From a virus, in IMG/VR virus record IMGVR_UViG_3300028364_000014, positions 173,911 to 237,910 of that record: a stretch of DNA of 64,000 nucleotides; one strand, given 5' to 3'. A program made the translations under genes and the position numbers. Under the pieces are notes generated by a model. The model ran no database searches, was not told the DNA's origin, and saw nothing but the letters and a program-made list of their open reading frames with translations. Positions 23,969 through 51,392 of this stretch are shown here, piece by piece (positions within the stretch are counted from its first letter, which is position 1; each line of letters begins with the position of its first letter).

Positions 23969-23969
23969 A

Positions 23970-28330: not shown

Positions 28331-28831
28331 TTACATTAACCTCAGTCTTCTATCTATTTCAGGAGTTAATAAATGGAGCACATCAGATAATACACCCTTA
28401 CCTTCTGAACAGTTTATCATTTCACTATTATCAACTTTAAATAATCCTTTAGGAGCACTAATAGTATAACAGCTAGCTTCAGCTAAATTCATACATTCTA
28501 TATCAGATAACTTACTTCCAATGTACAGTAAGTCCTCAGGCTGCATATTATATCTTGGTAATATATTACTTGTTAAAATCTTACGTTTCGAATCTCTAGA
28601 TTTTACGTAGAAGAAAGGAATACTCCTTTTCTGCATAACCCCTAAAGATATATTAGGGTCGGTAGAAAGAAAAACAAAAGTAAATACCTTTTTTAACTCA
28701 TTAATAGCCTCAAAGTCCCTTTCGCAGTAATTTTTAAACAATACATTATTTAAATTATCCAAAGCTAATACACCATCAGTTATAATCCCGTCTACCTCAC
28801 TAACTATTATATCTATTTTAGTTAAATCCAT
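28331..28831 (-). CDS. KdsC-like HAD protein with altered catalytic motifs
   Basis: 166 residues, the size of KdsC (3-deoxy-octulosonate 8-phosphate phosphatase). The overall KdsC pattern is clear: VDGIITDGVL near the N-terminus, YVKSRDSKRK in the middle, DLLYIGSKLSD, then SCYTISAP. But motif I reads E-V-D where the nucleophile Asp is Glu12, and motif IV has Ser at residue 106 in place of the first Asp of GDDxxD. It may be a non-catalytic relative or act on another substrate. It closes the sugar-enzyme block. Confidence 0.7.
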   Translation of the reverse strand: MDLTKIDIIVSEVDGIITDGVLALDNLNNVLFKNYCERDFEAINELKKVFTFVFLSTDPNISLGVMQKRSIPFFYVKSRDSKRKILTSNILPRYNMQPEDLLYIGSKLSDIECMNLAEASCYTISAPKGLFKVDNSEMINCSEGKGVLSDVLHLLTPEIDRRLRLM

Positions 28832-28836
28832 TATAT

Positions 28837-29016
28837 TTAATCTCCAATATTATACTTTTCTTTAACCCTTCTAAGTTTTAAGAGTACCTCTTCTTTTTCT
28901 CTATTAATACGTGCTGAATACTCTCTTAAAACAACTCCAGCCCGTAGGCTTAATTCTTTGGTCTTTTGTAATTTTTTAAGCTGTTCATCTGTATAACCAT
29001 ATTTATTTTTGCCCAT
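28837..29016 (-). CDS. Small basic helical protein
   Basis: 59 residues beginning MGKNKYGYTDEQLKKLQKTK and ending KLRRVKEKYNIGD; almost all helix, strongly basic. GAGGT lies six bases before the ATG. It fits exactly between the RmlD-like gene and the KdsC-like gene, leaving three bases to one and five to the other, so it is probably real. Function unknown. Confidence 0.65.
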   Translation of the reverse strand: MGKNKYGYTDEQLKKLQKTKELSLRAGVVLREYSARINREKEEVLLKLRRVKEKYNIGD

Positions 29017-29019
29017 AGT

Positions 29020-29958
29020 TTACCTCTTCTTTATTCCTGTAGGACTAACTTCCTTCAAACGTCTACCGCATTTATTACAATTTACTCTCTTTTGAAAACC
29101 ATCAATTACTTCTTTACCACAACTACTACATACGTAATTTACTTCCAAATTTTCGTAAACCAATTGATTCATTTTTAAAAACTCTTTTTGTTCTTTTAAT
29201 TGCGTCATTAATTCTGAAATTTTAAAATCAATATCAGGGATAATAGTTGCTAGTGTTCTATCACAAAGAGACGAAGTCTCAATAGGTATAACTTTAATAT
29301 TTAAATCATAAACTTTTGAAATCATTTTTACCAACTCATATTTTGATACAGAAGATGGTGAGTAAATATGTCTTACACCGCACCAAAATAAATCATGTTT
29401 AATTATTTTTTCACATATTTTCGCAAACTGAAGACAAGTAATCCCATTCCAATAATGATTAGTAAAACCATTTACTTTTTTATTTTTGTTTGACTTTACC
29501 CATTCTAATAAAGAAAGTTTATTATTTATCTCTTCCCCTAGGATTGATGTACGTATTACAGTAGAATTAAGAGGCTCACCTAATGATTTTGACTTACCAT
29601 AGTCATCTAAAGAAGTATGATCCGAAACTTCTGTGTAACTCCCTTCTGAGCCATCAAACACACAATCTGATGTAGGATGAATTAACTTAGCTTCCCTATT
29701 GTAACAAAACTCTTGTACCTTCAAAGGAAATGCAGTATTAATTATAGAAAATTGTTGTTGACTAGTATTACCCCTCTGCGGAATCCTTCCTATACAATTT
29801 ATAACTACATCACCACTTTTAACATCCAGTTCATATAAACTATTGTCATCAGCCCTCAAAGTTTGTCTCGTTGTGCCGATGGTATTAAAGTTTTTTTTCA
29901 AATAGGTATATACATATCTTCCTAACATACCGTTTTTACCTAAAACTATAATTTTCAT
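29020..29958 (-). CDS. RmlD-like NAD(P)-dependent sugar reductase with zinc ribbon
   Basis: 312 residues. An N-terminal Rossmann motif GKNGMLGRY and the short-chain dehydrogenase active site YGKSKSLGE place it with dTDP-4-dehydrorhamnose reductases (RmlD/StrL) and related sugar reductases. HPTSDCVFDG matches the STDYVFDG segment of RmlD. The final 45 residues add a zinc ribbon (CSSCGK ... CNKCGR) not found in ordinary RmlD. It overlaps the dehydratase gene by an ATGA junction; together with the epimerase at 36735 it could reduce a 4-keto UDP-sugar. Confidence 0.8.
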   Translation of the reverse strand: MKIIVLGKNGMLGRYVYTYLKKNFNTIGTTRQTLRADDNSLYELDVKSGDVVINCIGRIPQRGNTSQQQFSIINTAFPLKVQEFCYNREAKLIHPTSDCVFDGSEGSYTEVSDHTSLDDYGKSKSLGEPLNSTVIRTSILGEEINNKLSLLEWVKSNKNKKVNGFTNHYWNGITCLQFAKICEKIIKHDLFWCGVRHIYSPSSVSKYELVKMISKVYDLNIKVIPIETSSLCDRTLATIIPDIDFKISELMTQLKEQKEFLKMNQLVYENLEVNYVCSSCGKEVIDGFQKRVNCNKCGRRLKEVSPTGIKKR

Positions 29959-32045
29959 ACTAAAAATCCCCCATTATTAAGCAACTTCGTTAAGTATTCT
30001 TGGGACTGTACATCGTCAGAAGAAGAAAAACTATCAAAAAGCACTTTAGGTTTTGAGCTTAAATGACTATAGTCTCTACCCATATCAAGCTCTGGCAACA
30101 TAATGTAATAATCCTCATTAAACACATGTGCTCTATGCGACTCATGCTCAGAAATTAAAACCTCGTGTTTCTTTTCTCCTTCACGTAAACCTATTATATC
30201 TATTGAAGTATGTTCATTACCGTAATGATTTATTAACACTTTAGCTAAATCACCGATATAGAACCTAGGCATATTCATTACAAACGTCTCTCCACCCACA
30301 CTATTTTCTGTGGCCTGAAATAATAAAGTTATAGCCTCAGGCAGTGTAAGAAAAAATCTTGTCATGTCAGCATCTGTGACTGTTATTTTATTAAACTGTT
30401 TTATCTGATCTATAAACAAAGGTACTACACTTCCATTAGACCCAAGCACATTACCACCTCTAATGCACACGAAGTCTGTATCTTTAGATAATGTGTTGGC
30501 ATGAATGATTAATTTTTCTCCTACGGCTTTTGTGAAACCATAGGTGTTGGTTGGGGCTACAGCCTTATCTGTACTAACATCAATGACCTTCTTTATCTTA
30601 TGTTTAATAGCTGAATTTATCACATTTATTGTACCAGTTATATTAGTTTTTATAGCTTCCTGTGGCTGATTTTCACATACAGGTACATGTTTTAGGGCTG
30701 CACAATTATGTGTAGCATAACCATACACATTGTAGGTATGATCTCCAGATACACTTAAATTATATACTACGACCTTTTTCTTTTTTTTACTTACGCTTTT
30801 GACAAGATAAAAAATATAATCATCAGTTATAAAATGTTTATAACTATTGGTTGAGCCATCAACATAAAAATTTTTATTTTTATTACTACTACCTATAGAA
30901 ATTTGATAAGTTTGTTTAAGATTTTCTTTTTTAACAGTTCTTCCACCTATAATTAAATCTTTTTTCGCTCTTGGTAATTTCATAAACCCTGTAGGAATAT
31001 TAATCATGCCAAACAATAATCTTAATTGATATGCCAAATTTTCAGATACTGTAGACATTTTACCATTAGAATAACACCCATCACCACAGAAGTACCCTAG
31101 CAATAACTGTTCAATTTTATTCATATCTTTTAATTTAAAAACCCACGATGGAATTATTTTATTTTCTGCCCCTTTACCAAACTCTTCAAATTTTTTTACT
31201 ATGTCTTTACCACACACCGTAATGGTACAAGAATTGTGATTAGTGTAGTAACGACTTCCTTTTTTTCCAAAATTTTCCAATAAAATATTTTCAACATCAG
31301 TAAGATAATCATCTTCTTTACTGTTAAAAGTAAATCTAACCGCATATTTACGTAAGTCTCCTTCCGCAAGGTAATATCCGAACAACCTCATCATTGCACT
31401 GTTATATTTTGTGTCTTCAGAATTTATTCTTACCTTTGGTATCGCAATATAATCACCTTTTTGTATTTCACCTGCCTTAATCCACTCAGCGCTATCTTTT
31501 TTATAATGTTCTGGGCATTCTCCCTTTAATTTATTATTACATGCAGGAGAACACGCAGTTCTATATGATTTTGGACACTGTTTAGAAGGTTTCCATACAA
31601 AATGTGTATGATCACTTGTAGATGTTATAGGAATATTAGAAAAATAAGAAGCAACATCTACCATCTCTTCATCAATTTTACGACTTATTAAGTTTTCAAC
31701 TTTATTTAGTCGCCCATCAGATGAAAAAACATAATCATTTATTTTAACATCCTCTATATTTTTAACTTCATTTTCACAAACAACTTTAGTTTTAACTGGA
31801 AAACAATGATACACATAATCTATACCCATACTAAATAATCTATCAATAGCTTCTGCATCTCTAACATCTCCTATTATAAACTTAAGTCTATCATCATTGA
31901 ACTTTCTATCAGTAGTCACTTGAGCTAATTCCCCTCTTGACAATAATATAATCATCTTTGGATCTTTGTCAAGCAACTGCTTTGTTAATTCATGAGCCCA
32001 TGAACCTGTCCCACCTGTAATCAATATTGTTTTATCTTTAAACAT
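29955..32045 (-). CDS. UDP-sugar 4,6-dehydratase (CapD/PseB/FnlA type), intein-containing
   Basis: 696 residues including a 367-residue intein (81-447); about 329 remain, the normal size for soluble CapE/FnlA or PseB enzymes. Evidence: ITGGTGSWAHEL, IIGDVRD, YVYH-CAALKHVP split by the intein, DVSTDKAVAPTNTYGFTKA (Thr, and Tyr-x-x-x-Lys), RGGNVLGSNGSVVPLF and MTRFFLTL. These use NAD(P) to turn UDP-GlcNAc into a 4-keto-6-deoxy sugar. Gene order dehydratase-reductase plus a 2-epimerase nearby recalls the UDP-L-FucNAc/L-QuiNAc routes. Two exact consensus promoters lie close to its 5' end, one inside it. Confidence 0.88.
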   Translation of the reverse strand: MFKDKTILITGGTGSWAHELTKQLLDKDPKMIILLSRGELAQVTTDRKFNDDRLKFIIGDVRDAEAIDRLFSMGIDYVYHCFPVKTKVVCENEVKNIEDVKINDYVFSSDGRLNKVENLISRKIDEEMVDVASYFSNIPITSTSDHTHFVWKPSKQCPKSYRTACSPACNNKLKGECPEHYKKDSAEWIKAGEIQKGDYIAIPKVRINSEDTKYNSAMMRLFGYYLAEGDLRKYAVRFTFNSKEDDYLTDVENILLENFGKKGSRYYTNHNSCTITVCGKDIVKKFEEFGKGAENKIIPSWVFKLKDMNKIEQLLLGYFCGDGCYSNGKMSTVSENLAYQLRLLFGMINIPTGFMKLPRAKKDLIIGGRTVKKENLKQTYQISIGSSNKNKNFYVDGSTNSYKHFITDDYIFYLVKSVSKKKKKVVVYNLSVSGDHTYNVYGYATHNCAALKHVPVCENQPQEAIKTNITGTINVINSAIKHKIKKVIDVSTDKAVAPTNTYGFTKAVGEKLIIHANTLSKDTDFVCIRGGNVLGSNGSVVPLFIDQIKQFNKITVTDADMTRFFLTLPEAITLLFQATENSVGGETFVMNMPRFYIGDLAKVLINHYGNEHTSIDIIGLREGEKKHEVLISEHESHRAHVFNEDYYIMLPELDMGRDYSHLSSKPKVLFDSFSSSDDVQSQEYLTKLLNNGGFLV
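30705..31805 (-). mobile_element. LAGLIDADG intein in a nucleotide-sugar dehydratase
   Basis: 367 residues between YVYH and CAALKHVP, where normal enzymes have HAAALK. It begins CFPVKTKVVC and ends canonically GYATHN before Cys. Block B includes TSTSDHTHF. The LAGLIDADG motifs are LFGYYLAEGD and LLLGYFCGDG. A Cys cluster (CPKSYRTACSPACNNKLKGEC is the region, residues 157-177) could bind zinc, an unusual feature for an intein. Confidence 0.92.
31945..31972 (-). promoter_or_regulatory. Consensus promoter inside the sugar dehydratase gene
   Basis: Minus strand TTGACA (31967-31972), 16-base spacer, TATATT (31945-31950). It lies in codons 25-34 of the dehydratase, with the same geometry as the intergenic promoters. 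Transcripts would begin upstream of the intein and cover the downstream RmlD- and KdsC-like genes. Confidence 0.65.
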
Positions 32046-32514
32046 TGTATACTCCTACAAAATAATTATCCAAACCAGTTAAACCAGTAATTCTATTCCA
32101 TCCTATAAAATCGTCTGTAACCCAAAGAGATTTATGATGATCGTACTCATTTTTATAACACCACAACTTAGGATTATTTACATTTATTGAATTATCCGTC
32201 CACCATAATGGTGTCAATAATATAATATTTCTACATGTAATATTTTTTGCTTGTTCTAATATAATACATCCCCGCTCTTTGTCAAGGTGCTCTATAAAAT
32301 CTATCATTAATACGACATCAAAACTATTTTTCAAAAAAGGTAAATCTTTTTCTGTTAAATCTAATAAAATATCAGGATTAACCTTGTCCCAAGCATCTAA
32401 CGTAATTACTTTATTACATACTAAATCAGAAGAACGTCGCTTGTCTCCACATCCTACATCAATAACATTATCTTCCTTCTGTACATAAGCCTTAATCAAA
32501 TCATTTATATTCAT
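32038..32514 (-). CDS. SAM-dependent methyltransferase (type 11-like)
   Basis: 158 residues. Motif I VIDVGCGDKRR at about 18-28, an acidic strand end TLDAWD, motif IV FDVVLMIDFIEHLD with the His of methyltransferase type 11 proteins. It is short, lacking a separate substrate domain; such proteins in sugar clusters often methylate a glycan end. It overlaps the dehydratase start by eight bases and contains a consensus promoter. Confidence 0.75.
   Translation of the reverse strand: MNINDLIKAYVQKEDNVIDVGCGDKRRSSDLVCNKVITLDAWDKVNPDILLDLTEKDLPFLKNSFDVVLMIDFIEHLDKERGCIILEQAKNITCRNIILLTPLWWTDNSINVNNPKLWCYKNEYDHHKSLWVTDDFIGWNRITGLTGLDNYFVGVYNV
32258..32285 (-). promoter_or_regulatory. Consensus promoter inside a methyltransferase gene
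   Basis: Minus strand TTGACA (32280-32285), 16-base spacer, TATATT (32258-32263), within the codons for the DKERGCIILEQ region of the methyltransferase. It could drive the dehydratase gene 200 bases downstream. Confidence 0.65.
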
Positions 32515-32517
32515 AGT

Positions 32518-33282
32518 TTATTCTCCTATAAAACTATTTTTAACTTTATAATTAGATGATTTTACACACTCATCGTACAACCTTCTATTAGTAGCTTCCT
32601 TACTAGGTATAGCGTTATGCTTATGAAATTGGTGAATACAAAAAGGACTCTCTATAAATTTAATGTCCATATTCTTTTTACTAACCCTAGCAGCAAACTC
32701 AGTGTCATCGTAACCATAACCATTAGCGAACCGTTCATCAAATCCTCCTAGGTCTAGTAAGTCTTTAGTAGGTATGGATGTAAGAAAATTATAATGTGCT
32801 GGCCTATAAATAGGATGTATAAACCAAGAATTATCTTTACCCACCTCAATAGTACTTTTAGCACGTAGTTTTACAACTATATTATCCACATCTAATTTGT
32901 TCGAAGCCTCTTCACTTAATGAATAGCAACAAAATACAAGGTATTGATTATCCTTAGAATTATTGTTAACAAAAGATAAAACGTCACCAACATGTAAGCA
33001 TTCTGGTGCTTGTATTATTACTATATCCCCTCTAATTAAACTAAATCCCATGTTGAATGGTATACAAGGATTTATATGGTGCTTATCTTCAGGTTCTATT
33101 CTTACTAATTTAACGAAACTAAATTCATCAGCAAAGTCTTCTATACGTTGGGAAGGTTCACTCGCATCATCCACTATTATATATTCAAAATCCTTATATA
33201 CTGACTGCTTCATAGTTTTCAAAGTCTTTAATAAAACCTCTTTACGATTATGATAAGCAGACACTATTGATATTTTTGTCAT
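32518..33282 (-). CDS. Family 2 glycosyltransferase
   Basis: 254 residues from the ATG at 33282 with AAGGTG upstream; the frame is open further but only from a TTG. The GT-A start ISIVSAYHNRKEVL, the strand YIIVDDASEPS and the later GGFDERFANGYGYDDTEFAAR (an ED-type motif) are typical of GT2 and of the C-terminal 'galactosyltransferase' region. It would transfer a sugar from an NDP donor. It overlaps the tail of the frameshifted glycosyltransferase upstream by a few bases. Confidence 0.85.
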   Translation of the reverse strand: MTKISIVSAYHNRKEVLLKTLKTMKQSVYKDFEYIIVDDASEPSQRIEDFADEFSFVKLVRIEPEDKHHINPCIPFNMGFSLIRGDIVIIQAPECLHVGDVLSFVNNNSKDNQYLVFCCYSLSEEASNKLDVDNIVVKLRAKSTIEVGKDNSWFIHPIYRPAHYNFLTSIPTKDLLDLGGFDERFANGYGYDDTEFAARVSKKNMDIKFIESPFCIHQFHKHNAIPSKEATNRRLYDECVKSSNYKVKNSFIGE

Positions 33283-33283
33283 A

Positions 33284-33385
33284 TTAATTAAACACCTTAT
33301 ATAAAATTTTTTCAAACTGATCTACTCTATTCATTACACTGTGGTTCTCATGAACAAACCTCAGGCCCTCTTCTCTAACATCCAT
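33284..33385 (-). pseudogene. Out-of-frame C-terminal tail of the upstream glycosyltransferase
   Basis: 33 codons starting MDVREEGLRFVHENHSVMNR and ending LYKVFN. This is the typical final helix of GT-B glycosyltransferases (E-G-L-x-F-V-x-E-N-H-S-x-x-N-R). It lies directly behind the stop of 33387-34190 but one base out of phase. A single extra or missing base in the six-A run at 33400-33405 would join the two. It is therefore probably the lost end of that gene rather than a separate one. Confidence 0.65.
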
Positions 33386-33386
33386 A

Positions 33387-34190
33387 TTAGTTATTTGGAT
33401 TTTTTAAACACTCATCCACTACACTCAAAACATTCTCTTTTGTTATTGGTATATAATGTTTATGAGCAAGCATTCCAGATAGTTTAAAATCTTCCGTCTC
33501 TTCGGCAAATAATAAAGACCCTGTTGCAGGTATTTCAAAATATTTTGCTAGTACATACTTAAATATAGAGGCTGTGGCTATACCACAGTAGTAAGAATGT
33601 AATAAATTAGAATAAGAATCACCCTGGTATTGTGGCGGTCTGTAATCAATAGTACTATGTTTCTTATTAACTATAAACTGTCGAAAAGTATATACTTCTT
33701 TATTGAGGGACCCAGACAACAAACACTTCATTATAGGCTTTTCATTTAACTTAAAATTAATATATCTTTCATGTGGAGAAAAAAAATGCAACATAGTTTC
33801 ATTTTTTGCTAGAAATTGAGGGTACATCTGCTTAAAATACTCAGCTGTCTGCGATAGTATAATATCACACCTATTAAATACTTTTATTTTATTTACTAGA
33901 CAGTCTTTATTACCATAACATTGTAAATCTCCTGACCACATTATTAATTTTATACGCTTATTAAGTTCTAAAAGTCCAGGTATCAACCCTGGTCTATTAT
34001 GATAAGGAACTGCCCACATCAAGACCACATCAGTATCATCATCTACGTAAACCTTATTAGCAAATCTTATTTCAAAATTAAATCGTTTTTGTATTTCATA
34101 CCATAAAGGAGCCATAACACTTAGCGTACTTTTATAGTCAGGTGTCCACAAATTCTCATAGAATTTAGGAATTATTATTACACCTTTCAT
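33387..34190 (-). CDS. GT-B glycosyltransferase (group 1 / CgeB-like), C-terminus frameshifted
   Basis: 267 residues. The second half carries KYFEIPATGSLLFAEETED, the nucleotide-sugar-binding signature of group 1 / CgeB-like transferases, followed by the AHKHYIPI and VVDECLKN helix that normally runs on into a final helix. That helix is found one frame away at 33284-33385. The first half has the usual DVVLMWAVPYH and KLIMWSGD strands. The truncation removes only the last helix, so activity may survive. Confidence 0.78.
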   Translation of the reverse strand: MKGVIIIPKFYENLWTPDYKSTLSVMAPLWYEIQKRFNFEIRFANKVYVDDDTDVVLMWAVPYHNRPGLIPGLLELNKRIKLIMWSGDLQCYGNKDCLVNKIKVFNRCDIILSQTAEYFKQMYPQFLAKNETMLHFFSPHERYINFKLNEKPIMKCLLSGSLNKEVYTFRQFIVNKKHSTIDYRPPQYQGDSYSNLLHSYYCGIATASIFKYVLAKYFEIPATGSLLFAEETEDFKLSGMLAHKHYIPITKENVLSVVDECLKNPNN

Positions 34191-34191
34191 A

Positions 34192-34683
34192 TTATAACTC
34201 TCCTATTATTGTATAAAGAGAAGTTCGGTCATCTTTTACATACGGCTCTACGGTAACTTTTCCCTGACTACGTAATTCTCTAAACTCCTCTCTACTACTA
34301 GTGGTGTGTTGAAAATCTATAATATTTATTTTTCCATTACCAACTAAAATTTCTTCTATTTTAATATCATTATGACTAACCTCTATTCTATTTAAAGCAT
34401 CAAGTATGTATTCAACCTGATCCTGCCAATCAATAGGTCTTGAATGTTTATTTATCTCCATCCCCATGTAATCCATTACTATTGAATTAGTGTTAAAACT
34501 AATTACTTTAGGCACCCTATCAAAATCTTTCATCTTGTTCAACCAAAAAACTTCTTTATTAACAAAGTCATAATGGCTATACTTATCATGTATAACTTTT
34601 TTAACAAAGACAGCTTTAACTTGAGAAGTAACTTGTAAAGATGCATCAAGGTAATATATTATAGACGTATTATTAGATCGCAT
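34192..34683 (-). CDS. Protein-kinase-like fold protein
   Basis: 163 residues from the ATG at 34683 (AGGAGG about 12 bases upstream); an 18-codon longer frame exists inside the upstream gene. The catalytic-loop-like sequence VSHNDIKIEEILV resembles H-x-D-x-K-x-x-N, with Glu-Ile in place of the usual Asn, and NIIDFQHTT resembles the metal-binding DFG/DFD. The N-lobe is short (VFVKKVI holds a possible ATP-binding Lys). It may be a small-molecule or sugar kinase (Kdo-kinase or LPS-kinase-like). The altered Asn makes activity uncertain. Confidence 0.6.
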   Translation of the reverse strand: MRSNNTSIIYYLDASLQVTSQVKAVFVKKVIHDKYSHYDFVNKEVFWLNKMKDFDRVPKVISFNTNSIVMDYMGMEINKHSRPIDWQDQVEYILDALNRIEVSHNDIKIEEILVGNGKINIIDFQHTTSSREEFRELRSQGKVTVEPYVKDDRTSLYTIIGEL

Positions 34684-35317
34684 TACAGATGTATAACCTC
34701 CTATCATGCTGTCCGGGATCATCCAAAGATTTAGCATAAATTAAATCAACATTAGTATAAATAGTTTTTATAACTTCTAACTGAGCGTCTTGATTTTCAC
34801 CATTAAGTTCTATTAGTAGATGATTAGAAATTGATTTTATATAATTTAATACTTCTCTCCAATTTTTAATCCACATTATCATAGATAGAAAAAAACATAT
34901 ATCAATTTTTTCTGAAAGTACAAAATCACTTACGTTTGAAATGGGCCTATTGTCTAAGTCAAAGTTATAAAAATTAATATTATGTGTATCATTATAATCT
35001 CGTATAAGATTAGCAGTATTAATACAATTAAAATCTCGATCAATTCCTACACCGTAGCGTATAACTGGTGCCAGCTCATGTAACATTCCTCCAACATTGC
35101 AGCCTATATCTAACACGGTTTTATCTTTAAAATCAAATTTTACATCTACTAATCTCATTTGATTATCTCTTTGTCCCTTATACACTTCTCCCTTCAATTT
35201 CAAAGTATGGTAGCCAGCATCATATTTGGTACCACCATAAGGTTGTTTTGGGTTTTTAGCATGCATAGCCATCCTTAATACTTTTTCTTTTGTCATATCT
35301 CCTATTCTATAAGTCAT
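34673..35317 (-). CDS. Class I SAM-dependent methyltransferase
   Basis: 214 residues. Motif I TVLDIGCNVGGMLHEL at about 57-72, acidic GIDRD after the second strand, and IDICFFLSMIMWI in the motif IV position. This matches FkbM/type-12-like and other methyltransferases of sugar clusters. The AGGAGG before the first ATG supports the start. It overlaps the kinase-like gene by 11 bases. Substrate unknown. Confidence 0.8.
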   Translation of the reverse strand: MTYRIGDMTKEKVLRMAMHAKNPKQPYGGTKYDAGYHTLKLKGEVYKGQRDNQMRLVDVKFDFKDKTVLDIGCNVGGMLHELAPVIRYGVGIDRDFNCINTANLIRDYNDTHNINFYNFDLDNRPISNVSDFVLSEKIDICFFLSMIMWIKNWREVLNYIKSISNHLLIELNGENQDAQLEVIKTIYTNVDLIYAKSLDDPGQHDRRLYICNAI

Positions 35318-36150
35318 TATATATACCCCTCCTGTTTTAATAGAGTAGTCATGCTACAATTTCTTTTAAATCCATTAGTATTAACATATTGCTTACTCTC
35401 TTTTCTTCCATTATACCAATGAACACACATAACATTATTATTTATACAACTTAAATCTACACCCCTGTAAAGCTTCTGTATCGTAACATTTGGTGGATGA
35501 ATGTTATATGGGTAATAAGTCTCAAACCTAGTACCTATAACATTACCAAACTTATATAAAGAATCTAACGTAGGGTAATGAGTATTAAGCAGACTAGCCC
35601 CAAAAACTTCATGAGTATGCGGAGGTTTAACATTTTTAACAGCTTTAATCACAGACTGCAAATATACCGTATTCTTGGCGTGTATCATGATTCCTATACT
35701 ATGCCCTCCACCTGTACCGTATATGAACGAAACAATATCAGTAACCTCTTCTATCGGGACATTACCATGGTATTCTATGTTACGAAAATGTTCCATAGGC
35801 TTTAACCAAAGAACATCAAAGTCAGACCACACACCCCCTATGGTATAAAGTATGTAATACCTAAATATATCAGACCTTAGTATACCATGAAGTGCTGATG
35901 ATATACCATAATCATCTAAATCTATAGTTACTATATTCACATAGCCTAGTTTTTTTACTTCCTGAAAATAATCTTGGCCTGTATAATCGGGAATGTACCT
36001 AGCTTTCCCTTTGTAACCTTGTTTCGCAATGTAAACATTTATTTTCCATTCAGGATTATATTTATGAAATGAAACTACAGTAAGCATCTGTAGTTTTGAC
36101 ATTGGACTTCCGTCCCAATATAAGTGTAATTCGTGAGGTATAAGATCCAT
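35317..36150 (-). CDS. GT32-type glycosyltransferase (DXD sugar-binding)
   Basis: 277 residues. The start IPHELHLYWDG and the core ILRSDIFRYYILYTIGGVW followed by SDFDVLWLKP are the hallmarks of capsular-type GT32 transferases; the D-x-D binds the metal and NDP-sugar. VHWYNGRKES near the end matches the family's final W/H region. It shares one base with genes on each side, so the whole stretch reads as one operon. Confidence 0.87.
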   Translation of the reverse strand: MDLIPHELHLYWDGSPMSKLQMLTVVSFHKYNPEWKINVYIAKQGYKGKARYIPDYTGQDYFQEVKKLGYVNIVTIDLDDYGISSALHGILRSDIFRYYILYTIGGVWSDFDVLWLKPMEHFRNIEYHGNVPIEEVTDIVSFIYGTGGGHSIGIMIHAKNTVYLQSVIKAVKNVKPPHTHEVFGASLLNTHYPTLDSLYKFGNVIGTRFETYYPYNIHPPNVTIQKLYRGVDLSCINNNVMCVHWYNGRKESKQYVNTNGFKRNCSMTTLLKQEGYI

Positions 36151-36719
36151 TATATCACTAGCTCCTCTAAAATCCCCTCTAAATCATACGTACGTTGTTC
36201 ATGCACACACTCATAAAACCCTTTTCTATCTACCTCTTCTAATTTTTGGATAAGATATGTTTCTACTCTACCACTTAATTTTTTAGAAGACTCAATCATA
36301 TGTGCAGGACGTTTATTAGTATTAAAGTCTTCCCGTTTAATAGTTTCAATAGATAATCTATCCATCATCTCACCAACACTGTATACTATATCATCACTCA
36401 TCCAGTTCTCAAGAGAAGGAATTTCTTTAGATGTTCTCACATTATGAATAAATCTATTAATATTAGCCTTAGATGCTACACGATATTCACCCACACTGCG
36501 AGCCACCCACTCCATTGCCGCGATTGATTCATAACCCTTTGTACCAGATTTTCTAATATCAATCACAACAGCATTGGCAACATAACAACGGAAATTAGCA
36601 TCGGCCAGTATATAAACGAACTCCATTATATTTTTTGTTTCTTCTGCCGAAAAATGATTACAAAAAATACCTTCTATGTGTTTAAAAAAATCTGTAAAAT
36701 CTAAATCTTCTAATATCAT
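36150..36719 (-). CDS. Hypothetical protein of the sugar block
   Basis: 189 residues from the ATG at 36719, eight bases after GGGGG; the frame also opens two codons earlier at a TTG. All-helical in appearance, no Cys cluster, with WMSDDIVYSVGEMMDRLS near the middle. I recognise no family. It lies between the epimerase and the GT32 gene, overlapping the latter by one base, so it probably takes part in the same pathway. Confidence 0.6.
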   Translation of the reverse strand: MILEDLDFTDFFKHIEGIFCNHFSAEETKNIMEFVYILADANFRCYVANAVVIDIRKSGTKGYESIAAMEWVARSVGEYRVASKANINRFIHNVRTSKEIPSLENWMSDDIVYSVGEMMDRLSIETIKREDFNTNKRPAHMIESSKKLSGRVETYLIQKLEEVDRKGFYECVHEQRTYDLEGILEELVI

Positions 36720-36734
36720 TATCAACTGCCCCCT

Positions 36735-37802
36735 TTATTTCCCTAAAAGTATGTTTATTACTGTGTCTGATACATCGTCTTTTGTATAGTCCTCGGGAGG
36801 AACCCAAAAATATGTCCTATCTTTAATAACATTAAACACATTTACTATTTGAGCAGTATCTGTGCCTACTAAAATATTAGAGCCGCACTCTATTGTTTCT
36901 TGTCTTTCTGTACTCTCTCTAATAGTAATAGAGGGTACATTAAAAAGGCAAGCTTCTTCTTGGCAGGTGCCAGAGTCAGAAATAATAACTTTTGCACTTT
37001 GTTCTAGTTTTATAAAATCAAAGAAGCCAAAAGGCTCGGACATTAATACACCATCAGCCACAGTAATCTTAAATTTATCAATTTTATCTTTAGTTCTAGG
37101 ATGCACAGAAAAAATTACTTTCATCTGCTTACTGATAATATTCAAAGCACTCACTATACCTAGTAACGACTCTTTATTGTCTACGTTCTCAGTTCTGTGT
37201 GCGGTCACAAGCACAAAATCCCTATACCCAAGACCTAGTTTATTAAGTATATCACTATTATCTATCTCATTAATATAACTCTGAATAACTTCATTAATAG
37301 GATTACCTATTTTAAACACAAAATTCTTATGGAAACCTTCAGCCAATAAGTTTTGTTTACTATTATCTGTGTATGGTAAATTGTACTTCGACACATGATC
37401 TATAATACGCCTATTAGTTTCTTCTGGAAGACGTTCATCATAGCATCTATTCCCCGCTTCCATATGATAGACAGGTATATTATATTTTTCTGCTATTATA
37501 GATAGTAAGCCAGAATTAGTGTCGCCTAACAATAATACCTTATCTGGTTTCTCTTTTAATAAAACTCGTTCAAATTGAATGATGGCACTGGATAAGAAGG
37601 TTCCAATAGAGTGCCCTTCGTTAGTAAAATAATAATCAGGCTTACGTATTTTTAGCTCATCAAAAAATTTACCACTCAAATTATAATCATAGTTCTGATT
37701 TGTGTAAATAAATATATGATCTACTACCCCATCCAACTTATTTATTAACACACTAAGGCGGATTAATTCTGGTCTTGTCCCCGCTACTGTTAAAATTTTC
37801 AT
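36735..37802 (-). CDS. UDP-N-acetylglucosamine 2-epimerase-like protein
   Basis: 355 residues, the normal length for WecB/FnlC-type epimerases. Motifs: TVAGTRPELI at the N-terminus, VLLLGDTNSGL, YHMEAGNRCYDERLPEE with its conserved Glu residues, VTAHRTENVDN, HPRTKDK and SDSGTCQEEACLF. These enzymes swap the C2 configuration of UDP-GlcNAc or of its 6-deoxy products. With the dehydratase and RmlD-like reductase it makes up the three activities needed for UDP-L-FucNAc or UDP-L-QuiNAc. GGAG precedes the ATG. Confidence 0.93.
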   Translation of the reverse strand: MKILTVAGTRPELIRLSVLINKLDGVVDHIFIYTNQNYDYNLSGKFFDELKIRKPDYYFTNEGHSIGTFLSSAIIQFERVLLKEKPDKVLLLGDTNSGLLSIIAEKYNIPVYHMEAGNRCYDERLPEETNRRIIDHVSKYNLPYTDNSKQNLLAEGFHKNFVFKIGNPINEVIQSYINEIDNSDILNKLGLGYRDFVLVTAHRTENVDNKESLLGIVSALNIISKQMKVIFSVHPRTKDKIDKFKITVADGVLMSEPFGFFDFIKLEQSAKVIISDSGTCQEEACLFNVPSITIRESTERQETIECGSNILVGTDTAQIVNVFNVIKDRTYFWVPPEDYTKDDVSDTVINILLGK

Positions 37803-37803
37803 A

Positions 37804-38007
37804 TTAACTCCACATATGTTCTTGGTATAAATATTCTTTTGGCATTGACAAATTCAAGCTAACATAGTTAATTTTTCCACATTTTCTACATTTTTCTATG
37901 ACCCTACATCCAGGGCAATTACCAATACCAAAACCTATTCTTTTTGTCATTTGTATTTTAATTTCCTTGTAGTCATGCCAACAGAATTTAAAAAAATTAT
38001 TAATCAT
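37804..38007 (-). CDS. Small zinc-ribbon-like protein
   Basis: 67 residues from the ATG at 38007, which shares TAATG with the end of the upstream glycosyltransferase. It contains CWHDYKE near the start, C-P-G-C and C-R-K-C-G, a plausible zinc site. Similar small phage proteins have no assigned function. It precedes the epimerase by one base. Confidence 0.6.
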   Translation of the reverse strand: MINNFFKFCWHDYKEIKIQMTKRIGFGIGNCPGCRVIEKCRKCGKINYVSLNLSMPKEYLYQEHMWS

Positions 38008-38759
38008 TACTTTATCCAATCCGCTGTCTCCCTTGACATACCTACCAAATTAAAATCTGTTATACGTTCAGTAGTATTCCATTTTAACGGAGTATAATGT
38101 GTGTCATGATGTAACACAGTACAACAAGTACCACCTAACCTACCATTATGCTGTGTTCTATTTATAAGGGGACGTAAAGCTTTATAACCATACTCTTTAA
38201 AAAACGCTTGTACTGACCAATCCCAACCCCAAGCTTTATAATATTTTTTAACTAGTGTAGTATCATTCCATGCTTTCTGAAAACAGCCCTCCCAACCTTC
38301 CTTAAATGTACACCAACCGAGCCCTTCAAAAAAAGGTACCTCTTCTAAAGCAGAGTAATCCTCACCTCTAGGGTTAAACCCAAACAGCCCATAGGACATA
38401 AATGTAGTAGGCTTATCTCTAAAATTATTATAATACCAATTAGCTAAATCAATAGCATCAGGAGCTAATAAAAAATCATCCTCTAAATGAACATTAAATG
38501 TAGACCCTGCTGCAAAGGCAGAACTCAGCACATTAAACATATTATCAATAGCACCTTGATGATCGTTTCTACCAATGGAGTTTTTTTTATACAAAATATT
38601 TAAAGCTAATTTAGACTCTTTTAATATTTTAATACATTCCGGAGAATTTTCGGCGCTACAAAAAATTGTATAATCATCCAGCTTTTGTTTTTCTAAACAT
38701 ATTAAAAACTCTTTCAAGTAATTTGGTCTATATCCAACAGGAAAAGTTATAGTTTTCAT
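38007..38759 (-). CDS. GT-A glycosyltransferase-like protein
   Basis: 250 residues. The GT-A arrangement is visible: an N-terminal strand ITFPVGYRPNYL, NSIGRNDHQGAIDNMFN and the D-x-D-like motif HLEDDFLLAPDAIDLANW, typical of glycosyltransferases in phages and of GNT-I/GT13-like proteins. WGWDWSVQAFFKEYG would be the acceptor-side Asp region. It overlaps the neighbouring gene at 38756 by four bases. Confidence 0.78.
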   Translation of the reverse strand: MKTITFPVGYRPNYLKEFLICLEKQKLDDYTIFCSAENSPECIKILKESKLALNILYKKNSIGRNDHQGAIDNMFNVLSSAFAAGSTFNVHLEDDFLLAPDAIDLANWYYNNFRDKPTTFMSYGLFGFNPRGEDYSALEEVPFFEGLGWCTFKEGWEGCFQKAWNDTTLVKKYYKAWGWDWSVQAFFKEYGYKALRPLINRTQHNGRLGGTCCTVLHHDTHYTPLKWNTTERITDFNLVGMSRETADWIK

Positions 38760-39394
38760 ATTTTTATCCTTATTTTTTTATATTTATCAATTATATCCGT
38801 AGCGTAAATACACTTTTTCAGCCCCACTAAATTAGCCTTTATAGGATCAGTTAATAAGGGTTGAACTGCCAGCCAAGGCATCAGTCCGAGAATAAATACC
38901 TCATTACATAATAAATCATGTACATAAATAAACGCTGTTAGTGCCTCTAGCTCCTTATTTTTAAACAATGAGTCTTCTCCATACTTATTATGGAGATTGG
39001 ATTTTTGATAAGTCCAAGAAGGGTTGTCATTACCTGTATAAATTAAAGTAGATTTACTGCATGTTTTTATATGTATGCCAGGAAAAGTACTTTTTGGGTA
39101 TGGTAAGTCACAAGACCAACTTTTCTTACCAACAGGAAGCACTGTTAAATCAGGAGCCGCACTTGGATAGCCGAGCTTTTTTTCCAAATATTCGGCCACA
39201 ATAAACTCTCCAACTTTACCAATTACAATATCGTGGTGTGCTTTTAACGCTCTTCTTTCATTTTTATAATAAGTTTTACTTTGTAAACTCGCACTGGCAA
39301 ACCTACGTGATTTTTCTACATAGTCATTAAATTTTAATTTATCTACCGTATATGGGTCTAAAAATAATACAGTGTTATCGCTATAACAATACAT
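38756..39394 (-). CDS. Possible PD-(D/E)XK nuclease, next to a Dam methylase
   Basis: 212 residues. The segment GKVGEFIVAEYLEKKLG near 58-74 (helix with Glu), then PDLTV and CDL, then GIHIKTCS, fits the E ... D ... (D/E/H)-x-K order of restriction-type nucleases, with His in place of the second acidic residue. A Leu/Ile-rich second half (EVFILGLMPWLAV) could pack the core. It lies seven bases after the Dam-type methylase gene. It could be a restriction partner, but equally a sugar or DNA-modifying protein; low to moderate certainty. Confidence 0.45.
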   Translation of the reverse strand: MYCYSDNTVLFLDPYTVDKLKFNDYVEKSRRFASASLQSKTYYKNERRALKAHHDIVIGKVGEFIVAEYLEKKLGYPSAAPDLTVLPVGKKSWSCDLPYPKSTFPGIHIKTCSKSTLIYTGNDNPSWTYQKSNLHNKYGEDSLFKNKELEALTAFIYVHDLLCNEVFILGLMPWLAVQPLLTDPIKANLVGLKKCIYATDIIDKYKKIRIKI

Positions 39395-39401
39395 AATTCC
39401 C

Positions 39402-40241
39402 TTAAAAATTACTTATAAGTAGTTCTGTTTTAAAATTACGGGCTGTGTTTATAGAGTAATTTATATTATTAATAATTTCTATATTTGCCCAACCCATATA
39501 CAACGAACTTATTTCTTCACAATTATCGTAAGACAAGGTCCAAAAATGCTTAGTGTTTTTTAAAGAGTCAGCCAATCTTATATGATCTTGATAATTAAAC
39601 CCACACTGATATAACTCTTGCCCCTTAACAAAATAAGGTGGGTCTAAGTACAACAAAGCAGTAACTTCGTCATCAGTAATCAACTCAGAAAAATCCAAAG
39701 ACGAACATTTTATATGTTTGTTTTTAAATAATGAATTTAATTTATTAATATTTTTAGATAAATGCCCTGGGGACCATCTACAATCTATTTTATATTTAGA
39801 TTTCTGTTCTTTTCCGCCTAAAGGACCTCCGGATTTAGTTCCTAGTCCTGAAAAAGAAAGTTGATGAATAGTTAATTTCTTAAACCCATACAGTAACCTT
39901 TCTTCGTTGGTCAAGTCATTAAATTTTATATCTTCCAATAGTTGTTTCTTAGCAGTATAAAAATAATCCACAGAAGGGGTAAACTTCTGTATCAATTCTA
40001 TTAACCCGATAGGGTTATTTATAACAGTAAACCACAAACAAGCTATCCCAAAATCAAAATCATTTATCCAAAAACTATTTATACCTGATATAGTGAGTAA
40101 CTCAGTGGTAATTTTTCCACCACCTAAAAAAGGTTCCCTGTATTCAATTATTGTATCATCCTTGCTCAATCCTTCACATAACTTACTAAGTATCTGGTCC
40201 CTTAGTTTAGCTTTACCTCCTGGGTATCTAAAAAACGACAT
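39402..40241 (-). CDS. DNA N6-adenine methyltransferase, Dam type (D12 class)
   Basis: 279 residues, close to T4/E. coli Dam. Motif I-like FRYPGGKAKL at 4-13 and EPFLGGGK at 36-43, and the catalytic DPPY at 200-203 (LLYLDPPYFVKG), followed by LSYDNCEEI. It methylates adenine in DNA, probably to protect phage DNA from host enzymes. The gene is inside the glycosyltransferase block and next to a nuclease-like gene. Confidence 0.93.
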   Translation of the reverse strand: MSFFRYPGGKAKLRDQILSKLCEGLSKDDTIIEYREPFLGGGKITTELLTISGINSFWINDFDFGIACLWFTVINNPIGLIELIQKFTPSVDYFYTAKKQLLEDIKFNDLTNEERLLYGFKKLTIHQLSFSGLGTKSGGPLGGKEQKSKYKIDCRWSPGHLSKNINKLNSLFKNKHIKCSSLDFSELITDDEVTALLYLDPPYFVKGQELYQCGFNYQDHIRLADSLKNTKHFWTLSYDNCEEISSLYMGWANIEIINNINYSINTARNFKTELLISNF

Positions 40242-40245
40242 AAAA

Positions 40246-41364
40246 TTAAATATCCTTTATTTCAGTAATAATTTTATCTGCTATAACTTCCCAAGAAAAA
40301 TTCTCTTTAATATAATTCTTTAGGGTCATTCCTTTCTCTTTTGCTTTATTTTGATTTTCATATACATACTTCATTTTGTTAGCCCCGTCTAATACATCAG
40401 GCTCAGCCCATAACTGTGTTCCATCATACCACGGACTCCAAGGCATGCTATGTACGGGCGTCAACATATGGTTTACTAGATAACTATTGTCTTCTTTTGC
40501 ATACTCTGTTGCGCCGCCAAATCCGGTAACTACGATTGGATTACCAGCAGCTCCAGCAGTAAAACTGGAGAGTCCAAAACCTTCACCCCTATCTAAAGAC
40601 ACATAACAATCACCCCTAGTATGTAAAGAGGTTATTTCATCCTCAGACAGCATATTACCAATAAGAACCATCTTAGGAAAATCAGACATAGGCATATTAT
40701 ACTTTAGAGATTTGATCATTCTAATCACACCTTCTTTTTGCTGATCCGAGTAGTCATTACCGTATGTTTTTAAAACCAGTACTACATCTTTATTACCATT
40801 AAATGCGTGGTAATAAGCCCTTATGAGTGCTTGAGGGCACTTTCGTTCAGTCCACTGACAGATATTATAAAAAACAAAATCAGTGTCTTTTACACCAGCA
40901 ATTTTAAAAGAATCAAAAGAATCAAAAGCTTTAGTACTAATTCCGTGAGGAACTACCCCTATCGGAATAGTCACACCACTATCTTTAAATATCTCCCTAT
41001 TCCACTCACAGCCTACTAATACTTTATCAACAGAATTATTTATAAAAGGCGTCCAATCAGAATGTAACTTAGTAGTCTCCCAAATTGTAAACCCACAATT
41101 TATTTTACCCACTTGTCTATACTTAGACCAAAATTCTGGAGTAGTGTGTATAAAATTAATATTATATAGAATTGAATTTTCAACTAAACTTTTTAATAGT
41201 TTACCATCTTCTCCTAAGTCTGGCTTGCTGTTTTCAAAAGAAATAGGATTGATAGTAATAGGCACACCGGCTTGGTGTAACGCTAGTATATTACCCCTAC
41301 ACGCTTTACCATAACCGCTTGAATCAAAAACCGGTCCTGTATATCTAATTCCTGTTATATCCAT
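40246..41364 (-). CDS. GT4-like glycosyltransferase (group 1)
   Basis: 372 residues. The GT-B pattern is clear: GPVFDSSGYGKACRGNI at the start, FTIWETTKLHSDW, GVVPHGIS, VLVLKTYGND and the C-terminal nucleotide-sugar site CYVSLDRGEGFGLSSFTAGAAG (E-x7-E-like region). These enzymes transfer a sugar from an NDP donor with retention. It follows the ThyX-like gene with no gap and shares architecture with the larger GT at 42066. Confidence 0.9.
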   Translation of the reverse strand: MDITGIRYTGPVFDSSGYGKACRGNILALHQAGVPITINPISFENSKPDLGEDGKLLKSLVENSILYNINFIHTTPEFWSKYRQVGKINCGFTIWETTKLHSDWTPFINNSVDKVLVGCEWNREIFKDSGVTIPIGVVPHGISTKAFDSFDSFKIAGVKDTDFVFYNICQWTERKCPQALIRAYYHAFNGNKDVVLVLKTYGNDYSDQQKEGVIRMIKSLKYNMPMSDFPKMVLIGNMLSEDEITSLHTRGDCYVSLDRGEGFGLSSFTAGAAGNPIVVTGFGGATEYAKEDNSYLVNHMLTPVHSMPWSPWYDGTQLWAEPDVLDGANKMKYVYENQNKAKEKGMTLKNYIKENFSWEVIADKIITEIKDI

Positions 41365-41967
41365 TTATACCTTCTCCTTCGTTATAAAATATGGATGGTC
41401 TACTTGAGCTAGTACTTGCTTACAAAATGAAGGCCATTCAGGCTCTTTATGTTTATATCGTTGGTGTACCATATGCTGTAAATTCATATAATTTAAATGA
41501 ATAGTTCTTATGTACATATAACCAGATGGTAGATTACGTTTTAATTTAATTAAGTCAGCTCCTTCTTCAAGCAGTTCTTTATACCTATTTAAAATCACCT
41601 CATCTACTAAATGATCTATACCATTAGCTAGTTCTGATTTCTTTAACATATGCATAGTAGATGTTGATTGGACCGCTGCTATAGTAGTGTAAGTAGCTTG
41701 TTGCTGCCACCAATCGCAGGGGGCTTGGACAATAAGGTCTACATTCATAGCTCTAAGAAATTTATTATGTCCCATACCTTTAAAGGCCATTTTTTTAGCC
41801 CGCTCTAACATTTGATAATACAACTCATTATAATTACCAACACCGTCTAAAAAAATAGAGACGCCTTCATCCAAACCCTTTACTGTCTTATCAAAAGCTA
41901 ACCCCATTCCTACCAGAGCAGACAAGAAATTACCTGATGATTCATGTAATTTTTTAACTTTAATCAT
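41365..41967 (-). CDS. ThyX-like conserved phage protein
   Basis: 200 residues from the ATG at 41967, which has GGAGG five bases upstream; the frame stays open six codons more. The segment FLRAMNVDLIVQAPCDWW and QSTSTMHML, followed by a late LPSGYMYIRTIHLNYMNL and HQRYKHKEPEWPSFC, corresponds to a phage family whose pattern (APxxWWxxxxTY...S-T-M-H...LP...R) is reminiscent of FAD-dependent thymidylate synthase. The canonical RHRxxS ThyX motif is missing. It may make or bind thymidylate; the assignment rests on pattern alone. Confidence 0.5.
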   Translation of the reverse strand: MIKVKKLHESSGNFLSALVGMGLAFDKTVKGLDEGVSIFLDGVGNYNELYYQMLERAKKMAFKGMGHNKFLRAMNVDLIVQAPCDWWQQQATYTTIAAVQSTSTMHMLKKSELANGIDHLVDEVILNRYKELLEEGADLIKLKRNLPSGYMYIRTIHLNYMNLQHMVHQRYKHKEPEWPSFCKQVLAQVDHPYFITKEKV

Positions 41968-41980
41968 ATTGTCCTCCATA

Positions 41981-42020
41981 ACCATCAGTTACACCGGACG
42001 GAACCTATGCAACTGATGGT
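41981..42020 (-). promoter_or_regulatory. 10-bp hairpin in the leader of the ThyX-like gene
   Basis: ACCATCAGTT (41981-41990) and AACTGATGGT (42011-42020) form a perfect 10-bp stem with a 20-base loop. It sits between the promoter at 42037-42064 and the ribosome binding site, about ten bases from the likely RNA start. It could be a 5' stabiliser or a regulatory leader. Confidence 0.7.
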
Positions 42021-42036
42021 GTTATTATTACTATAT

Positions 42037-42064
42037 AATATAATACATTTTTCTAGTTTGTCAA
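42037..42064 (-). promoter_or_regulatory. Sigma-70-type promoter
   Basis: Minus strand TTGACA (42059-42064), 16-base spacer, TATATT (42037-42042), immediately after the stop codon of the glycosyltransferase at 42066. It drives the ThyX-like gene and probably the sugar block. Confidence 0.87.
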
Positions 42065-42065
42065 T

Positions 42066-43358
42066 CTAAAAAGTTTCAGCTGTTATAACCTTTCTGTCTA
42101 TACCAATTTCATTGACCGCAGTAGGATTTTTAAGGTCTCTTACAGCCTTATCAAAAATACTAACCCAAGCTTTGGCTATCTTACCCTGCCAATTCAATTC
42201 CGACTTCACCCACCCATAGGCTGTCTCCGCTTTCGCCTCAGCTTCTACGTAATTGTTGTAAATATACACCATCTTCTTCGCCATATCTTCGACATCAACA
42301 AGCGGCCTAATAACTTCATTGTCATTTGGTAGAACAGTATGTAATCCAGGAGTAGTCCCACTATCAATTAGGTAGCCCTTATCTTCAGTAATGTATTCTC
42401 CCATAGCTGTATTATTAGGCATTAAAACAGGGGTCTTAGTAGCCATAGCCTCTACCCAAGAAAGACCAAAACCCTCCCCTAAAGTCGTACTAACAACAAG
42501 ATCAGAGACATTGTATATTAAATTAACAATTTCTTTAGGATACCCTTGATTAGGCCCAAAATTCTCTGGAAAAACAACATCTTCTCCAACAACTAGACCA
42601 TAGGACTTACAAACCTCATCCAGACTCCAACCCTGGTCTTTCATTGCCATATGTAGATATAAAATAGAAGTTGGCACTTCCTTTCTAAACTCCACAAATG
42701 CAGCTATAGTTCTAGGTATATCTTTTCTATGCTGATTTCGATTAACATTAGTAATAATAAATTTATCTGCGTGCTTACCAAAATACTGTGCCTTAAACTT
42801 TTTAATAATATCCTTAGGTAGAGGTTTAAAATCATCAATATTAGCGCCATGAGGCACTACTTGCATGTCTTGTACAGCAGGGTATACTTTCTTAGCCTCG
42901 TTAGCTCCAAACTTGGAATAAGCCACTAAGTAATCAACGGCATCCACATTTTTAATCCATTGCTCTTTAGGAACACCATCAATAGGAAAATAACAAATTG
43001 ATTTAAAGGCTTTCCCACTCGCTATTAGGGCTGGTATAAGTTTAGGTAAAAAATCTAAAATAAAAGTATCCTGCAAACAAAACAAGATGTCATACTCCAT
43101 TTGCTGGGCCATGCTTACAAATTTCTGTCTTCCGTATGGGTCCTTTTGTGTGTTAGTACCGGCTGGGAACTGGCGATAAGGGAAGGTATGCGGATCGCCC
43201 CAGTAGTTGATAGCAAATATATCGATATCATATCTTCCAGTTTTAAATAACGCTTCACAAATATTTCTAGACACAGATCCAAAACCTGTTGCACATGAGA
43301 CTGCATCAGCATATACAAGTACTTTAGTTTTCTTATTTACTTTTTTGTTTTTTGCCAT
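42066..43358 (-). CDS. GT4-like glycosyltransferase
   Basis: 430 residues. GT-B features: VLVYADAVSCATGFGSVSRN (donor/acceptor loop), LDFLPKLIPAL, VVPHGANIDDF, FIITNVNRNQHRKDI and VVSTTLGEGFGLSWVEAMA with the paired Glu of the retaining GT4 site. This is one of six or seven glycosyltransferases here and the largest. It lies between an HNH endonuclease and the ThyX-like gene, with a promoter right at its stop codon. Confidence 0.9.
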   Translation of the reverse strand: MAKNKKVNKKTKVLVYADAVSCATGFGSVSRNICEALFKTGRYDIDIFAINYWGDPHTFPYRQFPAGTNTQKDPYGRQKFVSMAQQMEYDILFCLQDTFILDFLPKLIPALIASGKAFKSICYFPIDGVPKEQWIKNVDAVDYLVAYSKFGANEAKKVYPAVQDMQVVPHGANIDDFKPLPKDIIKKFKAQYFGKHADKFIITNVNRNQHRKDIPRTIAAFVEFRKEVPTSILYLHMAMKDQGWSLDEVCKSYGLVVGEDVVFPENFGPNQGYPKEIVNLIYNVSDLVVSTTLGEGFGLSWVEAMATKTPVLMPNNTAMGEYITEDKGYLIDSGTTPGLHTVLPNDNEVIRPLVDVEDMAKKMVYIYNNYVEAEAKAETAYGWVKSELNWQGKIAKAWVSIFDKAVRDLKNPTAVNEIGIDRKVITAETF

Positions 43359-51390: not shown

Positions 51391-51392
51391 TA

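Follow-up and report, generated by a model that had tools for sequence, protein, structure and literature searches.

A predicted UDP-L-QuiNAc pathway whose first enzyme is interrupted by an intein, in the genome of an uncultured jumbo phage

The last 64 kb (bases 173,911-237,910, hereafter the window) of the virus record IMGVR_UViG_3300028364_000014, which is linear and 237,910 bp long, contain a block of minus-strand genes (28,331-43,358 of the window) whose products are predicted to constitute a complete route from UDP-N-acetylglucosamine (UDP-GlcNAc) through UDP-N-acetyl-L-rhamnosamine (UDP-L-RhaNAc) to UDP-N-acetyl-L-quinovosamine (UDP-L-QuiNAc). We consider it reasonably probable that the phage employs this entire route, including the splicing of an intein that interrupts its first enzyme and the transfer of the sugar by glycosyltransferases to an acceptor of the phage's own making. 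The enzyme families, the catalytic motifs, the gene set and the intein are read from the sequence; the stereochemistry, the splicing and the acceptor are what we infer. Pathways of this kind are known from bacteria and from a giant virus, and what appears to be new is that one occurs in phages, that its first enzyme bears an intein, and that a sister phage has a related intein in the enzyme that follows. The features that carry this interpretation are the following (window coordinates):

29955..32045, minus strand: UDP-GlcNAc 4,6-dehydratase precursor (PseB/FnlA family, YxxxK type); two exteins flank an intein, predicted spliced product 329 residues
31806..32045, minus strand: N-extein of the dehydratase, residues 1-80, aligned with 14 intein-free relatives
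30705..31805, minus strand: intein of 367 residues, with Cys1, TSDH block B, a LAGLIDADG endonuclease region and a C-terminal His-Asn, then Cys+1
29955..30704, minus strand: C-extein of the dehydratase from Cys+1, and stop; STDK and Y135xxxK139 (extein numbering)
29020..29958, minus strand: RmlD-family 4-reductase, QnlA/WbvR type; predicted product UDP-L-RhaNAc
36735..37802, minus strand: non-hydrolysing UDP-N-acetylhexosamine 2-epimerase of the CapG/FnlC/QnlB class, predicted to convert UDP-L-RhaNAc to UDP-L-QuiNAc

In the mechanism that we propose, the intein would excise itself from the 696-residue dehydratase precursor and join His80 to the extein Cys, and the resulting 329-residue enzyme would carry out both the 4,6-dehydration of UDP-GlcNAc and an inversion at C5. 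The RmlD-family reductase would then epimerise C3 and reduce C4 to give UDP-L-RhaNAc, and the CapG/QnlB-class epimerase would invert C2 to give UDP-L-QuiNAc. Finally, the soluble glycosyltransferases of the block would transfer this sugar, together with others, to a cytoplasmic acceptor, which would most likely be made by the phage and be a virion protein, DNA being the less likely target.

The dehydratase is recognized by two equivalog models, TIGR03589 for PseB (E 2.8e-84, the top NCBIfam model) and TIGR04130 for FnlA (1.6e-70), and falls below the curated cut-offs of both; with FnlA the score is 237.7 bits against a cut-off of 730. Its exteins retain the catalytic motifs STDK and Y135xxxK139. 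The Tyr of this YxxxK is also found in Megavirus Mg534 (4tqg), and it occupies the position of the Met in the MxxxK of FnlA and CapE. The initial annotation had assigned this frame to the dehydratase family, as the PseB and FnlA models confirm; it had also taken the 696-residue frame for a single enzyme, and in this it had overlooked the intein.

The frame matches PF02719 and the PseB and FnlA models in two separate parts, and the stretch that divides these matches LAGLIDADG and intein models; the frame is best described, on its sequence, as a 329-residue enzyme interrupted by a 367-residue LAGLIDADG intein. Removal of residues 81-447 leaves a 329-residue dehydratase, and its alignment with viral relatives that lack an intein extends over the full length. 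The insert has the marks of a class 1 intein: it begins with CFPVKT, contains TSDH and ends in ATHN, and the next residue is Cys. The splicing chemistry needs Cys, Ser or Thr at this +1 position, where Leu or Met stands in all 14 of the aligned intein-free viral relatives. Domain matches are to PF14528 (1.1e-8), PF14890 and the intein models of IF-2 and RecA; a profile built from this intein and three related ones matches solved inteins in the PDB, and a structural model of low mean confidence (51.6) gives Foldseek matches to PI-SceI and to VMA inteins, E being about 1e-9 for TliVMA and PI-SceI.

The insertion is lacking in the dehydratase of the related phage L007, which is 80% identical, and in the other aligned relatives; in comparison with the 79 other dehydratase-bearing loci that were fetched, an intein at this site occurs only in this virus species. 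In the sister phage L004 it is the adjacent reductase gene that carries an intein, at its STDC motif, and its resemblance to the dehydratase intein is the greatest among the four inteins compared (81 bits, 26% identity over the full length). Relatives of the dehydratase intein were otherwise found in the viral_contigs set only in the same virus, and a whole-record intein search of seven related phages gave only weak matches, in the ribonucleotide reductase of L007 and in the reductase intein of L004. The phage itself has at least five intein-bearing open reading frames (ORFs): those for the dehydratase, a ribonucleotide reductase, PolA and a ClpB-like AAA protein, and one of 996 residues that matches LAGLIDADG twice. 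The intein-related matches lie as follows:

193022-194104, 198504-199712, 168059-168235, 32293-33420, 204615-204848 (record coordinates, G000): intein-related matches

Phage inteins have been described in the genes for TerL, a RecB-like nuclease, ribonucleotide reductase and PhoH, within conserved motifs (PMC5050341, PMC3322345). The hosts of those elements belong to DNA and nucleotide metabolism, whereas here the host protein is a sugar-nucleotide enzyme; in the open-access text to which our literature search was restricted, no report of an intein in such an enzyme was found.

The two remaining enzymes were correctly named by the initial annotation. The reductase matches PF04321 (E 7.5e-19) and the epimerase matches PF02350 (E 9.8e-87) and exceeds the cut-off of TIGR00236 with 251.6 bits. 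The reductase scores 131, 130 and 121 bits against RmlD-family reductases that stand beside fnlA-type genes in Escherichia coli O181, O3 and O123. With the RmlD of E. coli O26 it reaches 30 bits, and with the FnlB of three E. coli serotypes no more than 24. In a tree it groups with these E. coli reference reductases and with the reductases of phage and bacterial modules, the window's sequence lying with those of L003, L005 and L007; inspection by eye reveals an additional C-terminal CxxC...CxxC segment. The names QnlA, for the RmlD-family reductase, and QnlB, for the C2 epimerase, follow PMC9723277, and their application to the E. coli genes is our own assignment. The epimerase retains the motifs GDTN, MEAGNR, PEETNR, HR.EN and SDSGT. 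Its score is 324 bits with CapG (7ya2) and 115-123 bits with 1vgv, 1f6d, 3dzc and 1o6c, the WecB-type chains of E. coli and Bacillus among those compared, and by these matches it is of the CapG/FnlC/QnlB class and not of the WecB class, its substrate being predicted.

Family matches thus place all three enzymes in a single predicted pathway from UDP-GlcNAc to a 2-acetamido-2,6-dideoxy-L-hexose, as the initial annotation had proposed. Three known routes use such enzymes, and it is the reductase scores that decide between them. The initial annotation had left the choice between the product of FnlABC, UDP-N-acetyl-L-fucosamine (UDP-L-FucNAc), and that of WbvB/R/D; the option leading by way of L-RhaNAc to L-QuiNAc remains, and that of UDP-L-FucNAc is disfavored, because the reductase is not of the FnlB/CapF type. 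Besides its low scores with FnlB, it has no match to the FnlB/CapF model NF047837 and there is no CapF among its PDB matches. A UDP-L-FucNAc product as in FnlABC or CapEFG would agree with the closeness of the epimerase to CapG and to FnlC (311 bits) and with the match of the dehydratase to FnlA models; the Tyr of the dehydratase in place of Met speaks against it as well as the reductase does, and we regard this product as improbable. A pseudaminic acid route, in which the dehydratase is a plain PseB and the RmlD homologue is unrelated to it, appears to us highly improbable. PseB is indeed the top model and the YxxxK is PseB-like, but no DegT/PseC aminotransferase (PF01041) and no NeuB/PseI (PF03102) was detected in the contig, which is truncated, and the linkage of dehydratase and reductase persists across two viral clades and bacteria. 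The dTDP-L-rhamnose route was rejected: RmlC (PF00908) was likewise not detected in the contig, and the reductase scores 52.9 bits with the rmlD model, for which the cut-off is 224. The pairing that the initial annotation had set against its own proposal, a plain PseB with the RmlD of rhamnose synthesis, is not what these searches show, nor the reductase scores of 121-131 bits with the E. coli references against 30 with RmlD. Taken with the likenesses of the reductase, the epimerase and the dehydratase, the lack of PseC, NeuB and RmlC in the contig makes the route through UDP-L-RhaNAc to UDP-L-QuiNAc the best reading.

Another alternative shares most of this route. UDP-L-RhaNAc could be the end product of the dehydratase and reductase, and the epimerase could separately convert UDP-GlcNAc to UDP-N-acetylmannosamine. 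In favor of such a division are the second viral clade, which has the dehydratase and reductase and, in 14 records, no match to the 2-epimerase, and also E. coli O3, where no 2-epimerase is annotated in the roughly 4 kb after the dehydratase. It accords poorly with an epimerase of the CapG/QnlB class rather than the WecB class, and with the linkage of this gene to the other two in 27 of 42 viral loci and in bacteria; we consider it unlikely, although less so than a UDP-L-FucNAc product.

A number of points weigh against the UDP-L-QuiNAc route itself. It is read from homology, and its products are predicted. The dehydratase lies beneath the cut-offs of both equivalogs, and the E. coli O3, O123 and O181 reductases serve as references by their gene neighborhood, not by the sugars of those serotypes. 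The score of the epimerase, 318 bits with the QnlB type and 311 with FnlC, does not separate the two types, and its gene is about 4.7 kb from that of the dehydratase, with glycosyltransferase and methyltransferase genes in between. The viral precedent for the 2-epimerase, Mg536, is without biochemical confirmation according to excerpts of the reports on it (PMC10117803, PMC4691112). The acceptor is deduced from absences only, and the absences are provisional because the record is truncated, its left end falling within an open frame of 3,307 codons.

Comparable enzyme sets are found in several settings. WbvB, WbvR and WbvD of Vibrio cholerae are a trio of the same kind. FnlABC and CapEFG, which make UDP-L-FucNAc for capsule or O-antigen, have a dehydratase and a 2-epimerase homologous to those of the phage, but use a reductase of their own, FnlB or CapF, that is absent from the phage block. 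The sets of Paenibacillus, Fictibacillus, Clostridium and Lokiarchaeota resemble the phage's in having the trio within 8 kb (adjacent in Fictibacillus) and a YxxxK-type dehydratase, and differ from it in being cellular and in showing no intein in the dehydratase matches. The QNL-type O-antigen clusters of E. coli O123 and O181 and of Plesiomonas O39 (PMC9723277) comprise the same three enzyme classes, and it is with their enzymes that the phage reductase and epimerase score best or nearly so; those clusters, however, are chromosomal, are accompanied by O-antigen processing genes, and have a dehydratase with Met instead of Tyr and no intein. In Megavirus chilensis (Mg534-Mg535-Mg536) the likeness is the dehydratase Tyr in YxxxK. 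Excerpts of the published accounts describe Mg534, an inverting enzyme that starts the route, and Mg535 as leading to UDP-L-RhaNAc, and propose that Mg536 yields UDP-L-QuiNAc; this is an amoebal giant virus and not a phage, and the same excerpts mention no intein (PMC10117803, PMC4691112). The phage dehydratase is nearer to FlaA1/CapE-type chains (235-241 bits) than to the Megavirus enzyme (170 bits).

The initial annotation had called such a complete set rare in phages. This is true of cultured phages, as sampled in a collection of 50,697 phage records, in which no complete trio turned up except in contigs resembling Staphylococcus aureus (the matching records of S. aureus and Listeria "phages" look like bacterial contigs and were excluded from the counts); the sole record with the dehydratase and this reductase is the uncultured LR745206, of 634,780 bp. 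It is not true of uncultured phages. IMG/VR provided 79 other loci with the dehydratase, and in the 42 that are well flanked (at least 7 kb before and at least 5 kb after the dehydratase) the reductase is always present, 27 having the full trio. The other 15 have no epimerase match near the dehydratase, and searching the entire records of 14 of these revealed none either, so in this sister group the route may end with UDP-L-RhaNAc. A bacterial scan produced 79 genome loci, with the reductase in 71 and a 2-epimerase match in all, within 8 kb of the dehydratase. Two of these, L083 in a Parcubacteria metagenome-assembled genome and L087 in one of WOR-3, have a sugar cluster of the phage type, at identical positions; they are probably phage contigs that were misbinned, and are not evidence of a host. 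A search of phages with the DNA around locus L045 gave no match.

Viral sequences fall into more than one cluster of the dehydratase tree, that of the window together with L003-L008 and L083. Relative to L007, dN/dS is 0.10 for the dehydratase, 0.27 for the reductase and 0.09 for the epimerase, values that are consistent with functional constraint and purifying selection; that they were computed on synonymous sites near saturation must be counted with the points against the route.

The block adjoins replication genes (clamp loader, PolA), and many of its genes abut or overlap by a few bases in an operon-like manner. Its other members are:

28331..28831, minus strand: KdsC-like HAD protein; in SEVDG, Glu stands where the nucleophile is expected
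32038..32514, minus strand: S-adenosylmethionine (SAM) methyltransferase (PF08241)
32518..33315, minus strand: GT2-type glycosyltransferase (Pfam/PHROGs)
33387..34190, minus strand: proposed glycosyltransferase, unconfirmed; no family detected
34192..34737, minus strand: RIO/protein-kinase-like protein (PF01163)
34673..35317, minus strand: SAM methyltransferase (PF13489)
35317..36150, minus strand: DXD-type glycosyltransferase (Gly_transf_sug, PF04488)
36150..36725, minus strand: conserved ORF, beside glycosyltransferases also in L004 and L007
38007..38759, minus strand: GT-A glycosyltransferase resembling GnT-I, conserved EDD motif
40246..41364, minus strand: GT4-type glycosyltransferase (phrog_2170)
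42066..43358, minus strand: GT4-type glycosyltransferase (phrog_2170)

The two methyltransferases and the kinase-like protein of the initial annotation were recovered by these matches, and five of its six glycosyltransferases are supported. Pfam and PHROGs identify those at 32518, 35317, 40246 and 42066; the product of 38007 has a weak GNT-I signal in its sequence, and a low-confidence model of it (pLDDT 58) has GnT-I structures as its first Foldseek matches (E about 2e-4). The sixth, at 33387, could be assigned to no family, and relatives of it were found only within this virus species.

In a simple scan of hydropathy, all proteins of the block appear to be soluble. Four or more strongly hydrophobic segments are present in no ORF of the contig, as they would be in a flippase-like, polymerase-like or other polytopic membrane protein, and no initiating enzyme of the Bac_transf family was found in it, polyprenyl-phosphate transferases of other families lying outside the search. 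Soluble enzymes and the lack of such membrane and initiating proteins weakly favor an acceptor made by the phage, of which a virion protein is the likeliest, rather than a host glycan that is exported. The same donors might instead decorate the host surface through the host's lipid-linked glycans, with an altered receptor or superinfection exclusion as the result. A review of jumbo phages proposes diversification of the outer polysaccharide for clusters of sugar and glycosyltransferase genes (PMC7824862), and borrowed host enzymes could still serve this end; the solubility of the block proteins and the missing membrane and Bac_transf proteins stand in its way, and we hold it to be possible but somewhat doubtful. 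Glycosylation of the phage DNA seems to us distinctly less likely than this. A ThyX-like protein (41365-41985) and a D12 DNA adenine methyltransferase (39402; PADLOC PD-Lambda-5_B, 185 bits) do lie within the block, but the contig has no ThyA-type base hydroxymethylase (PF00303) and no match to known DNA glucosyltransferase families, and the profile of the ThyX-like protein matched no solved ThyX in the PDB. That protein is degenerate (PF02511 E 0.029; phrog_6721 101 bits), and is 74-77% identical to its counterparts in three other viral contigs.

If the UDP-L-QuiNAc route is real, many uncultured phages would make UDP-L-RhaNAc, and often UDP-L-QuiNAc, independently of their hosts, which would point to a phage glycan that, within the literature searched, has not yet been sought in phages. 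The inteins in two adjacent enzymes of the pathway in sister phages would be self-splicing elements in sugar-donor genes, away from the genes of DNA and nucleotide metabolism from which phage inteins are usually described, and L007 offers a natural intein-free counterpart in comparisons of splicing or homing. A bolder proposal, which we advance as a speculation with rather little chance of being correct, is that a single intein family colonized the sugar-donor pathway of phages (the dehydratase here, the reductase in L004), that splicing gates glycosylation, and that the product is a novel decoration of virion or DNA common to many uncultured phages.

Some other components of the glycan blocks deserve mention. 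The KdsC-like HAD protein also adjoins the module in L004 (12819-13313) and L007 (9798-10292); in all three phages Glu (in SExDGIxTDG) stands in place of the expected nucleophilic Asp and the motif resembling GDD is degenerate, so that a non-catalytic protein has perhaps been retained beside the sugar module. A comparison of the window's HAD protein with the PDB found nothing. The glycan blocks of the sister phages include sulfotransferase-family proteins (L007:5253-5897, L004:6678-7220) that are absent from that of the window, and the glycan of these relatives may be sulfated. At 38756-40241 the D12 methyltransferase is preceded by a 212-residue protein in which nuclease-like motifs were seen by eye; the protein has no PADLOC match, and a role of the pair in restriction-modification or defence is possible.

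This phage also has two IscB-like ORFs (RRXRR and HNH) at L164:9926-11413 and L166:10011-11501 (G000 49926-51413 and 90011-91501), and a TnpB-like ORF (OrfB_IS605, Cas12f1-like TNB domains) at L169:16608-17813 (G000 156608-157813). Scattered among the phage genes are four related ORFs with zinc-knuckle-like repeats and HNH (21134-22345, 22910-23998, 43378-44418, 52167-53210), likely homing endonucleases, of which that at 43378 combines a CapR homology domain with HNH.

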